From Rhodospirillales bacterium (GTDB lineage: Bacteria > Pseudomonadota > Alphaproteobacteria > Reyranellales > Reyranellaceae), in contig CANIEC010000002.1 in NCBI GenBank assembly GCA_947466085.1, positions 1-64,000 of the forward strand: 64,000 nucleotides of DNA. Direction: 5' to 3'. Numbering within the stretch: the stretch's first letter is position 1; each line of letters starts with the position of its first letter. Positions 41,592 through 55,452 of the stretch are shown in pieces. Made by a program: the position numbers and the translations under genes. Under the pieces are notes generated by a model. It was given only the letters and a program-made list of their open reading frames with translations, made no database searches and had not been told where the DNA came from.

Positions 41592-41973
41592 GGGCGACAC
41601 TCTCTCTGCGCCGTCACGCTTGACCCAATCCAGGGGAGAACGCTGACGCCACGTTCTCCTTGCAACCAACATCTGCAACCGAAAAGCCTACGCGGCGGCG
41701 CGAAATAGGCCCCAGTAGCTCGCTACCGCCAGATCACCGTTGGGAATGGCGGATCGCAATTTGAGATCAATGCGGGTCCTGCTTTGAACCTAGGCGGCGG
41801 CCCGAACTAGCAAGTTAAGCTGGTTGCGCTCCCCCGCAACCAATTTGAAAACGCCGCCCTCGAAAGAGGGCGGCGTTCTTGCGTCCGGGCCGTATGCGCG
41901 TGTCTGTCAAAGGCCTGCGATCGCATCATTCATCGCCGCTACCTACGCTTCCTGGCTCAATGGAGCCCGGGCC
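41592..41973. other. Intergenic region between merR-2 and the FAAL gene
   Basis: No gene is seen. It contains an 8-base-stem hairpin TGGTTGCG/CGCAACCA (41821-41842) and the terminator at 41850-41877. Confidence 0.5.
41843..41877 (-). terminator. Rho-independent terminator of the FAAL gene
   Basis: On the minus strand AACGCCGCCCTC and GAGGGCGGCGTT form a perfect 12-base stem with a TTTC loop. It is followed by TTTTCAAATT. It lies about 100 bases after the FAAL stop. Confidence 0.8.
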
Positions 41974-43764
41974 CTAAGTTGAATAGTCGCCGGCGGCAAA
42001 CTTCGACTTGGCGTGCGTGCGGCTCAGCTTTCCGGAGGAGGTGCGGGGCAGGCCGGGTTGGCGCTTGATCAGGACGACCTGTCCGTCTACCCCGGCGGCT
42101 TCCTTGACCGCCTGCCTTATGTCGCCCACCAGCGACTCGCGTTCCGCAGGTTCGCTTGGATAGGCCTGAACGATGACCACGACGGTTTCGGTGTCGCCGT
42201 CTTCGATCGAGAAGGCACAGGCGTCGCCGCGACCGACCTGCGGCAGCGCCTCGATGGCCCACTCTATGTCCTGCGGCCAGATATTGCGGCCGTTCACGAT
42301 GATCAGATCCTTGGCCCGACCGGTGATCACCAGTTCGCCTTTGTGCCAGTAGCCGAGATCGCCGGTATCGAGCCAGCCGTCGCAAAGCACGCGCGCGCTC
42401 TCCTCGGGCATCTGGAAGTATCCCGGCATCACGCTGGGCCCTCGGACGAACAACCGGCCGACATGGCGTTCGCCCAGGGGCACGCCGTGCTCGTCACGGA
42501 TCTCGACGCTGTGTCCGGCCATAACCCTGCCGCAGACGACGAAGTCTCGCGACTGGCCCGACTGCGGATCGGCAAAGCTGTCCACTTTGACGCCGCCGAA
42601 CGGCGCGCCGAAGCTCAGGCCGACGCAGACCTCGGCCATGCCATAGCTTGGCATGTAGGCGCGCTCGTCGAAACCCGCCGCCTTGAAGGCCTCGGCGAAG
42701 CGCCGCAGGACGGGAAGCTGGATCATGTCAGCACCGACGCCCGCAAGGCGGAGGCTCGACAAATCGAGTTCGCCCATCGGCGCGGTCTGCGCGCGCCGGG
42801 TCAGCAGGTCGTAGCCGAAGCTGGGACTGTAGGTGATCGTGGCGCGGCGCCGCGAGATCAGCGAAAGCCACTGCATCGGCCGCCGGGCGAAGTCGCGGGG
42901 CGCCAGCAGGTCGACGCTGCGCTGTGCGCACATCGGCGCCAGGATGAACCCGATCAGGCCCATGTCGTGATAGAGCGGCAGCCAGCTCACGCCGGAATCG
43001 TTCTCGTCGAGCCCCTGCGCGGCGATCGACCCGTCGATGTTCGCCATCAGCTGGTCCTGGCGGATGTCCACACCGAGCGGCGCACGCGTGCTGCCGGAGG
43101 AGAATTGCACGTAGCAGGGCATGCCCGCGCCGAGCGGCCGCAGGTCGGCCTTGGCCTCGGGACGCGCGGTGAAGATCGCCGTCCCTCCGGCAAACCGCGC
43201 CGTCGTGCCTTCGGCGGCGGTCTGGGCGAACTCGACCAGTTCGTCGGGGGCGAGGACGCCCACGGCCTGCGAGGCGACGATCTGCTTCCTGAGCTGGAAG
43301 ATGTAGTGCGCCTTGGCGCCGAGACCGACCGGCACGGGAACGGGAACCGGGACGACGCCGGCATACTGGGCGCCGAAGAAAGCAACGCAGAAGCCCGGCC
43401 AGGTGTCGGCGATCAGGACGAGCCGTTCACCGGGCGCCACTCCGGCGCCGATCAGGCGGCGGGCGAAGGACTGTGCGTCAGCCTGCAGTTGCCGGTAGGA
43501 CAGGCGGGTGAGCAGCTTGCCGCGGGCATCGAAGAAGTTGAAGCCGGTCTCGCCCCTCGCGGCATAGTCCAGCGCCTCGCACAGGCTGGTGAAGCCGCCG
43601 CGGCGGAAGGGCAGGGATACGTTGTGGGTGGGCGTCGGGATCGCGACCCAGCGATCCGGGCTCGATTGCAGGGTCGACGCATAGCGTTGCATGCGGCCGG
43701 CTACACCATCGGCCGGCGTGGCACTTGAATGAAGAACAGGCAGGATTCCTCGGATCGACGTCAT
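41974..43764 (-). CDS. Fatty-acyl-AMP ligase-like adenylate-forming enzyme (FAAL/FadD-like)
   Basis: From ATG 43764 (GGGAG eight bases upstream) the protein has 596 residues. Features are SYRQLQADAQSFARRLIGAG, the phosphate loop VQFSSGSTRAPLGV, SWLPLYHDMGLIG (a FAAL/mycosubtilin-synthetase signature), SYGMAEVCVGLSFG, WLDTGDLGYWHKGELVITGR split and the C-terminal Lys in RTSSGKLSR. FAALs make acyl-AMP for transfer to an acyl carrier protein in lipid or polyketide assembly. No carrier or synthase gene is adjacent. A cobalamin riboswitch precedes the gene. Confidence 0.87.
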   Translation of the reverse strand: MTSIRGILPVLHSSATPADGVAGRMQRYASTLQSSPDRWVAIPTPTHNVSLPFRRGGFTSLCEALDYAARGETGFNFFDARGKLLTRLSYRQLQADAQSFARRLIGAGVAPGERLVLIADTWPGFCVAFFGAQYAGVVPVPVPVPVGLGAKAHYIFQLRKQIVASQAVGVLAPDELVEFAQTAAEGTTARFAGGTAIFTARPEAKADLRPLGAGMPCYVQFSSGSTRAPLGVDIRQDQLMANIDGSIAAQGLDENDSGVSWLPLYHDMGLIGFILAPMCAQRSVDLLAPRDFARRPMQWLSLISRRRATITYSPSFGYDLLTRRAQTAPMGELDLSSLRLAGVGADMIQLPVLRRFAEAFKAAGFDERAYMPSYGMAEVCVGLSFGAPFGGVKVDSFADPQSGQSRDFVVCGRVMAGHSVEIRDEHGVPLGERHVGRLFVRGPSVMPGYFQMPEESARVLCDGWLDTGDLGYWHKGELVITGRAKDLIIVNGRNIWPQDIEWAIEALPQVGRGDACAFSIEDGDTETVVVIVQAYPSEPAERESLVGDIRQAVKEAAGVDGQVVLIKRQPGLPRTSSGKLSRTHAKSKFAAGDYST

Positions 43765-43860
43765 CTGACGATCTCCCAAACGGTTCGCACTAAGCGCGTC
43801 ACCGCTCGGTTGACCGTCCCGTTGGATCATCCCGTCCATCGGAAGAGCGACGCTATCGCC

Positions 43861-44032
43861 GGCAGGTCTTCTGGCTCACGGGTCACGGCTCCTGCCCGTC
43901 TTCCCGGACCGAAGTCCAGTGACATATGGGCTCTCGCTCGCCGCTTACAGCTGCGGGTACAGCTGCCGATTGGCTCCCCGTGGAGGGAGCGGCACGGCAT
44001 TCCCTGTTAGCCTCCGGTTAGGGAGGACCGTC
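43861..44032 (-). promoter_or_regulatory. Cobalamin riboswitch
   Basis: On the minus strand the region shows AACAGGGAATGCCGTG, CCCGCAGCTGTAAGCGG, then TCACTGG with TCCGGGAAG, and ends in the B12 box GAGCCAGAAGACCTGCC (43877-43861). These are the conserved blocks of AdoCbl riboswitches in the right order. The only downstream gene is the FAAL at 43764, about 96 bases on. In bacteria this element normally lowers expression when cobalamin is abundant. Confidence 0.92.
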
Positions 44033-44107
44033 GATATGCATTCGTTAAGCTTGCGCTCGCCGCTGGTCAATTGCTTTGATGGTCCAAACTCGGGAGGATA
44101 CTGCAAG

Positions 44108-45397
44108 ATGTCGATGGTTCGTATGGCCGCCGCCGCGGCGCTTATCGTCGCGCTGGCCTGGCCGGCCGGCGCACAGGGCATACCAAAGGTACAGTCCCCA
44201 GAAGAGGTAGGGTTTCTCTCGACTCGCCTGAAGCGCCTCAGCGACCGGCTGAACGAGGGCGTGAAGAACAACGAACTGCCCGGCGCCGTCGTGCTGATCG
44301 CCCGGAACGGCAAGATCGTGATGTTCGAGTCCTACGGCTTCCGCGACAAGGACGCCAAGGTCGCGATGACCAACGACACGATCTTCCGCATCGCCTCGAT
44401 GACCAAGCCGATCGTCACCCTGGCCGCGATGATGCTGATGGAGGAGGGCAAGCTCACGCTCGCCGACCGCGTGTCGATGTACATACCGGCGTTCGCCGAC
44501 ACCAAGGTCGCCGTCCAGAAGAAGAAGGAAGACGGCACGACCGAGACGGTGCTGGAGCCGCAGTTCCGGCCGATGACGGTGCACGACCTGATGCGCCATA
44601 CGTCCGGACTGACCTACGGCGCCGTGGGCGCCAATCCGGTGAAGCAGTCCTATCTCGACATGAAGGTCGCCGACCGCAATCAGACCAATGCCGAGATGGC
44701 CGACAAGCTGGGAAAGCTCGCACTGCTCTACCAGCCTGGCACGACCTGGGAATACTCGATGTCGACCGACGTGCTGGGCCGCGTCGTCGAGGTCGCGTCC
44801 GGCATGCCGCTCGACAAGTTCATCGAGGAGCGCATCACCAAGCCGCTCAAGATGGGCGATACCGGCTTCGAGGCCAGCGCCGACAAGAAGGCGCGCGGGG
44901 CGAAGCCGATGAAGGAGGGGCCGAAGAACGAAGTGCCGGCGATTCCCGACATCACCGAGAAATTCAACTGGCGCTCGGGTGGCGGCGGCATGGTCTCCAC
45001 GGCGGCCGACTATGCCCGCTTCCTGCAGATGTTCGCCAATGGCGGCCAGCTCGACGGCGTGCGCCTGGTCTCGCGCAAGACGATCGACCTGATGACCGCC
45101 GACGCGCTGCCGCCCGACATCAAGATGGGCGCCGACATGTTCCGCTTCGAGGCGCTCGAGCCGAGCGCCCGGATGGGCCAGGGCTTCGGCCTGGGCTTCG
45201 CGGTGCGCAACGTGCAGGGCGTCAATCCGCTGCCGGGATCGCCCAACGACTATTTCTGGGGCGGCGCCTATGGGACCTATTTCTGGCACGATCCGCGTGA
45301 GCGCATGTATGTCGTTTTCATGATGCAGTCGCCACAGGCACGTCTGCGTTACCGTTTCCTGATGCGTGACCTCGTCTACCAGGCGATGGTGAACTAG
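44108..45397 (+). CDS. Serine hydrolase, beta-lactamase class C / esterase family
   Basis: ATG 44108 has GGGAGG upstream. The 429-residue protein begins with a signal peptide (VRMAAAAALIVALAWPAGAQ). It has the catalytic S-x-x-K as SMTK (after FRIAS), the Tyr motif WEYSMSTDVLG, and a late GGAYGTYFW segment. It resembles EstB-type esterases and 6-aminohexanoate-dimer hydrolase-like proteins rather than true beta-lactamases. It is transcribed divergently from the FAAL gene. Confidence 0.88.
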   Translation: MSMVRMAAAAALIVALAWPAGAQGIPKVQSPEEVGFLSTRLKRLSDRLNEGVKNNELPGAVVLIARNGKIVMFESYGFRDKDAKVAMTNDTIFRIASMTKPIVTLAAMMLMEEGKLTLADRVSMYIPAFADTKVAVQKKKEDGTTETVLEPQFRPMTVHDLMRHTSGLTYGAVGANPVKQSYLDMKVADRNQTNAEMADKLGKLALLYQPGTTWEYSMSTDVLGRVVEVASGMPLDKFIEERITKPLKMGDTGFEASADKKARGAKPMKEGPKNEVPAIPDITEKFNWRSGGGGMVSTAADYARFLQMFANGGQLDGVRLVSRKTIDLMTADALPPDIKMGADMFRFEALEPSARMGQGFGLGFAVRNVQGVNPLPGSPNDYFWGGAYGTYFWHDPRERMYVVFMMQSPQARLRYRFLMRDLVYQAMVN

Positions 45398-55359: not shown

Positions 55360-55452
55360 GGAGGGGTGGCCGAGTGGCCGAAGGCGGCGGTTTGCTAAAC
55401 CGTTAATGGGGGTAAACCCCATTCGTGGGTTCGAATCCCATCCCCTCCGCCA
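55360..55452 (+). tRNA. tRNA-Ser(GCU)
   Basis: The acceptor stem GGAGGGG pairs with CCCCTCC, followed by discriminator G and an encoded CCA (55450-55452). The D arm is TGGCCGAGTGGCCGAAGGC, the anticodon arm GCGGTTTGCTAAACCGT has GCT, the long variable arm is typical of tRNA-Ser, and the T arm has GGTTCGAATCC. It reads AGC and AGU codons. Confidence 0.97.

Follow-up and report, generated by a model that had tools for sequence, protein, structure and literature searches.

A cobalamin riboswitch lies directly upstream of a gene for a fatty-acyl-AMP ligase (FAAL) on the minus strand of the window, by which is meant the whole 64,000-nucleotide stretch of DNA that was analysed; the features are collected in Table 1. 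The sequence-only reading had described an AdoCbl riboswitch with a B12 box on this strand, and a search with the Rfam covariance model (cmscan) bore this out, returning the full RF00174 model (positions 1-189) far above its gathering score of 31.5 bits. By this model the aptamer is a cobalamin riboswitch, with a predicted ligand response. The first minus-strand open reading frame after it is the ligase gene, which starts 80 nt past the aptamer. A divergent gene for a protein of serine-hydrolase/beta-lactamase fold (44108-45397) lies back to back with the ligase leader across a common intergenic region, a pairing that recurs in several relatives. The only further Rfam match at the gathering threshold within the window is a tRNA gene (55360-55449), and four relatives (L087-L090) have a comparable tRNA at a distance of about 5 kb from their ligase.

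Table 1. Features of the ligase gene and its leader (window positions)
Feature	Position	Strand	Details
Terminator-like hairpin after the ligase, 14 bp	41848..41879	-	-27 kcal/mol, short T-rich flank
Fatty-acyl-AMP ligase, PRK09192 type, 596 aa	41974..43764	-	NCBIfam NF006624, 686.9 bits, cut-off 600
Start codon and codons 2-5 (ATG ACG TCG ATC CGA)	43750..43764	-	common to the btuB-like leader
Hairpin holding the Shine-Dalgarno GGGAG	43767..43818	-	3/5 Shine-Dalgarno bases paired, 2 in internal loop
Cobalamin riboswitch aptamer (RF00174)	43844..44047	-	123 bits, E 2.2e-30
B12 box GCCAGAAGACCTGCC	43861..43875	-	read in sequence; also in other leaders
-35-like box TTGACC	44065..44070	-	17 nt before TAACGA (44042-44047)

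The ligase belongs to a family against whose model (cut-off 600) a paralogue in the same genome scores 740, three other orthologues 650-686 and the relative L095 680. Its PRK09192 family core begins at residue 48, and among solved structures the chain nearest to it in sequence is that of a fatty-acyl-adenylate ligase, 3pbk (E 1.4e-126). The adenylation motifs, which we take to correspond to A3, A5, A7, A8 and A10 with its lysine, are intact in the window's ligase; the ligase of genome G027 ends before A10, at the end of its contig. The loop after A5, presumably the FAAL-specific insertion, is shorter in the riboswitch-linked ligases than in the paralogue encoded by genome G000. It is shortest in one of the clades with a riboswitch and in the clade that has none, is short also in two members of the paralogue clade (L099 and L101), and in the ligase of G025 approximately 34 residues are missing after A5. 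The dN/dS ratio of the ligase ranges from 0.095 to 0.181 over six pairs, and the gene is under strong purifying selection. The best models for the protein are those of acyl-AMP/CoA ligases and related adenylating enzymes, which places it outside the B12-independent isoenzymes. The claim that the gene has a terminator of its own stood in part: a stable hairpin follows it, and the next minus-strand genes, encoding a MerR-type regulator and a YnfA-family protein, begin beyond this hairpin, but a consensus terminator scan, which needs at least five T in eight positions, listed none after the ligase.

The Shine-Dalgarno sequence of the ligase (GGGAG, 43773-43777) is situated 8 nt before the ATG within a hairpin whose minimum free energy is -33.4 kcal/mol (z -4.5), with none of 200 shuffled sequences being equally stable. 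The same expression platform recurs in a set of 42 leaders of the genus, described below and referred to here as cassettes. When each of these was folded singly, a hairpin whose 3' arm holds the Shine-Dalgarno sequence formed, with its inner helix, in all 42; the outer helix is absent from the minimum free energy structure of G001, and typically three of the five Shine-Dalgarno bases are paired across the cassettes, with the other two in an internal loop. In an alignment of the platforms 89% of cells pair, as opposed to 32-46% when the 3' arm is slid, and covariation within the hairpin was not above that of shuffled alignments because the 5' arm hardly varies. As to an anti-anti-Shine-Dalgarno helix, the duplex between linker and arm beat 95% of shuffled linkers in none of the 42 cassettes.

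This layout resembles that of E. coli btuB, where, in the available part of the published account (PMC11162775), the AdoCbl riboswitch is a translational OFF switch that sequesters the Shine-Dalgarno sequence in a stem-loop, and where a putative attenuator located in the first part of the coding region contributes to the switch. Reyranella likewise has the Shine-Dalgarno sequence in a predicted hairpin and has kept the first codons; it differs from the E. coli case in that the related leader stands on a ligase gene, with a mechanism that is predicted. From this resemblance AdoCbl is expected to shut off ligase translation, the direction being inferred from the likeness, and this is the most likely mode of control. 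Translational OFF switches are described also, in the part of the account available (PMC11260477), for the B12 riboswitches of M. tuberculosis metE and ppe2, one of which is over a gene of uncertain function. The ligase leader is a predicted switch of that type, although metE encodes an isoenzyme that works independently of B12, which the ligase is not.

The regulons of cobalamin riboswitches, as the available part of a 2013 survey gives them (PMC3766115), comprise B12 synthesis, B12 transport, cobalt transport and isoenzymes. A fatty-acyl-AMP ligase lies outside all four classes of that text and can indeed be called an unexpected target, as had been proposed. The parts of the present arrangement are of known kinds, and for their combination a literature search, in which subscription journals were thinly covered, found, among the matches listed, no paper joining a cobalamin or B12 riboswitch with a fatty-acyl-AMP ligase or acyl-CoA synthetase.

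The occurrence of the pair was examined in 37 same-genus (Reyranella) genomes among a set of 61, using stricter search filters under which weak riboswitches may be lost. An orthologue of the ligase, at 67% identity or more, is present in 22 of the 37, besides a fragment in G030. The survey of FAAL homologues that had been proposed as a check gave a riboswitch directly upstream of the ligase in 16 of the 22 genomes; it is absent from five (G018, G019, G021, G023 and G032), where the neighbourhood differs, and the remaining locus (G017) is truncated where its contig ends. The aptamers ahead of the 16 ligases score 116-128 bits and the hairpin is kept in all 16. The sequence-only reading had taken a btu or cob gene between riboswitch and ligase in relatives as evidence against its claim; none was found in any of the 16 same-genus pairs by an open-reading-frame heuristic (at least 60 codons), and an intervening btu/cob gene as the true target is ruled out for these. 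Neighbourhood maps, for which proteins were grouped by single-linkage clustering of blastp matches and each group was named after one or a few members, revealed no neighbour shared by all copies of the ligase.

In a wider survey the best 80 of at least 564 relatives of the ligase were all scanned with cmscan. RF00174 matched in six of these 80 (L087-L092), each with a match directly before the ligase; four overlap the same-genus set, L087 and L092 provide two additional pairs, and the isolate R. aquatilis (L090) is among the six. A pattern scan of the relatives found the same six together with scattered weak matches. Outside Reyranella, no link between riboswitch and ligase was found among these best 80 of at least 564. 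L095 retains the ribosome site and first codons, with a folE-like gene directly upstream and no riboswitch, which looks like natural loss; L094 lacks the cassette codons in a record with only 103 nt upstream.

The leader itself is a shared one. Two cobalamin riboswitches are present in the window's genome, and the second precedes a gene for a BtuB-like receptor (303.7 bits, below the B12-receptor model cut-off of 599.7) with BtuC-like and related transport genes alongside. The ligase and btuB-like leaders are 88% identical (265 of 302 columns) from the aptamer to codon 5. Across Reyranella one expression platform is common to 42 of 93 cobalamin aptamers, the targets being 19 BtuB-like receptors, one other TonB receptor, 16 ligases, two carbon-nitrogen hydrolases, two proteins without a Pfam match (D22), one NicO transporter and one ferredoxin-domain protein, such that TonB receptors or the NicO transporter account for 21 of the 26 non-ligase targets. 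The pattern of the 5' arm, with up to two mismatches allowed, occurs in three of 289 genomes drawn from the class: it is exact in the window's genome and in G031, has two mismatches in G321, from another family, and is not found in G016, the third genus member in that sample alongside the first two.

In 39 of the 42 cassettes a TTGAC sequence occurs 8-32 nt upstream of the aptamer, as it also does for 40 of the 51 other cobalamin aptamers of the genus, and so it appears to be a mark of a promoter rather than of the cassette; a sigma-70 consensus scan listed no promoter ahead of the window's riboswitch. At the other end of the leader, the motif MT[SP][IF]R opens the gene in 37 of the 42 cassettes, the exceptions being two BtuB-like receptors, one D22 protein, the NicO transporter and the ferredoxin-domain protein. 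Among the 16 ligase genes, whose starts were located by a motif over codons 2-5 that all 16 carry and that is seen unaided also, codons 2 and 3 are identical in all, codon 4 in 15 and codon 5 in 13. Over the whole gene 130 columns are degenerate and residue-invariant, and only 10 of these, codons 2-4 included, are codon-invariant as well; this difference points to constraint at the RNA level on the first codons.

Several other arrangements of cobalamin riboswitches were observed in these genomes. Head-to-head pairs occur 47 nt apart in L080 (4331-4791) and 66 nt apart in both L078 (G022, 5362065-5362537) and L092 (1327-1799), which suggests inverted duplication as one route of cassette spread. 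The D22 protein lies behind a ligase-type cassette in G018 (L179) and G030 (L199:5016-5921), the protein of the latter beginning MTSIREFLPVFF. In several genomes the carbon-nitrogen hydrolase (L191:5073-5921, L077:3596-4363), possibly a B12 salvage amidase at a guess, belongs to btuB-like/btuFCD-like gene clusters, and in G015 and G034 it stands behind a cassette of its own. A protein without a Pfam match, methyltransferase-like by eye only, is encoded by the first gene after 15 riboswitches (L171:5136-5912 and 14 further loci of its cluster), and in most cases genes resembling a TonB receptor and BtuFCD come next.

Two explanations had been suggested for the pairing, a B12-alternative lipid or ligand pathway, in which the ligase might conceivably act, and an original riboswitch-controlled gene replaced by the ligase. 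The second fits in so far as the leader, first codons included, is related to that of the btuB-like gene; however, that gene and its leader survive elsewhere in the window's genome. Given this survival, and the recurrence of the pairing across the genus under selection, the arrangement is better described as a capture than as a remnant. A remnant of a btuB gene lost at the ligase site is ruled out as the whole story, the pairing recurring in different neighbourhoods. In the ligase tree, a topology that unites the riboswitch clades is worse by 0.25 log units (p 0.49), and the figures for two rival groupings are 0.79 and 2.82 (p 0.42 and 0.25); a single capture is compatible with this tree, as are the rival groupings, and the tree permits it without establishing it. 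In the tree of leaders, a clade made up of just the 16 ligase leaders is rejected (p 0.004), and one that also takes in the carbon-nitrogen hydrolase and D22 leaders is not (p 0.061). The hydrolase leaders of G015 and G034 group with the ligase leaders from those two genomes (support 100 and 99), so that the ligase-type leader may have spread to other genes; the D22 leaders of G018 and G030 fall among the ligase leaders with weak support.

As for function, the ligase is a paralogue (54% identity) of another PRK09192 ligase in the window's genome, which is encoded approximately 1.1 kb from an ACP-like gene (its models under their cut-offs) and a serine palmitoyltransferase gene (over the cut-off). 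In the available part of the relevant account (PMC9386255), Caulobacter AasR charges a special ACP, AcpR, rather than CoA, for sphingolipid synthesis. The gene setting of the Reyranella paralogue is like that of AasR, and both Reyranella ligases belong to NCBIfam PRK09192, the likeness being one of family and setting rather than of direct sequence comparison with AasR. Unlike AasR, the riboswitch-linked ligase has a shortened loop after A5, a B12 riboswitch and an N-terminal extension with btuB-type codons at its start, and has no ACP or serine palmitoyltransferase gene noticed nearby in maps read by protein starts and clusters.

We consider it reasonably probable that a btuB-type cassette was captured by an AasR-like ligase, which would be switched off by AdoCbl and would charge an ACP encoded elsewhere. 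The cassette, consisting of the aptamer, Shine-Dalgarno hairpin, start codon and first five or so codons, and probably the promoter, would have been copied in an ancestral Reyranella, placed before the ligase gene and fused to it in frame. With AdoCbl bound, the hairpin would hide the Shine-Dalgarno sequence and ligase translation would stop; when B12 is scarce, the ligase would be made along with the BtuB-like uptake system, turn free fatty acid into acyl-AMP and pass the acyl group to its ACP partner, which would most simply be the one near serine palmitoyltransferase.

The cassette could instead be a neutral passenger that arrived by duplication and is without consequence. That the cassette is readily duplicated is evident from the head-to-head and repeated copies of the leader, and some ligase orthologues manage without it, yet all 16 ligase leaders retain the hairpin and an aptamer of 116-128 bits while the proteins drop to approximately 65% identity with that of the window, and there is codon-level constraint at the start together with dN/dS of 0.1-0.2, which makes this explanation highly improbable. 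A part in B12 uptake or salvage, such as the adenylation of a corrinoid carboxylate or the modification of an envelope lipid needed for uptake, draws on the ties to B12 genes seen in five genomes: the ligase and btuB-like leaders are head to head, 66 nt apart, in G022, and divergent with one gene between them in G035 and G020; a cobC-like gene (under its model cut-off) overlaps the ligase by 4 nt in G010; and in G003 a ferredoxin-domain gene follows the ligase, a relative of which has its own cobalamin riboswitch in G010. (The gene between the divergent leaders encodes a DUF6925 protein in G035 (L077:6600-7553) and, by clustering, in G020 (L082:1811-2725).) However, the protein is by sequence a fatty-acyl-AMP ligase with its motifs, and many of the mapped genomes have no recognised btu gene close to it; we regard such a part as distinctly improbable.

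Another explanation is that the ligase serves as an acyl sink or bypass, in which a shortage of AdoCbl would stall AdoCbl-dependent mutases and the odd-chain or branched acids that accumulate would be channelled by the ligase into lipids. The window's genome (89% complete) contains two mutase-type genes over cut-off, as well as MetH and NrdJ-type enzymes, and in the same 89% complete sequence there was no CobN match and no MetE over cut-off; it is therefore likely that of a B12 scavenger with a B12-dependent core metabolism, and this speaks for a sink. Conversely, the ligase is not an alternative form of any B12 enzyme, and mutases are present in all 25 of the 37 same-genus genomes in which CobN, MetE and mutases were surveyed, with or without the riboswitch-ligase pair, so that a sink of this kind seems unlikely.

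Returning to capture of the cassette by an AasR-like ligase, it is possible, and we propose it tentatively, that B12 supply controls the acyl traffic of membrane lipids in Reyranella, a duplicated acyl-ACP synthetase of the AasR type having been recruited into the response to B12 limitation by means of the captured cassette. A conserved, lipid-activating target of this sort would tie B12 status to envelope or acyl metabolism. The ligase leader is in addition a testable case of the growth of a riboswitch regulon by the copying of a whole leader with its first codons and, if the proposal is true, portable cassettes of this type, in which the first codons travel with the RNA and which stand before six kinds of gene in the genus, would offer riboswitch regulons a general way of acquiring new members.
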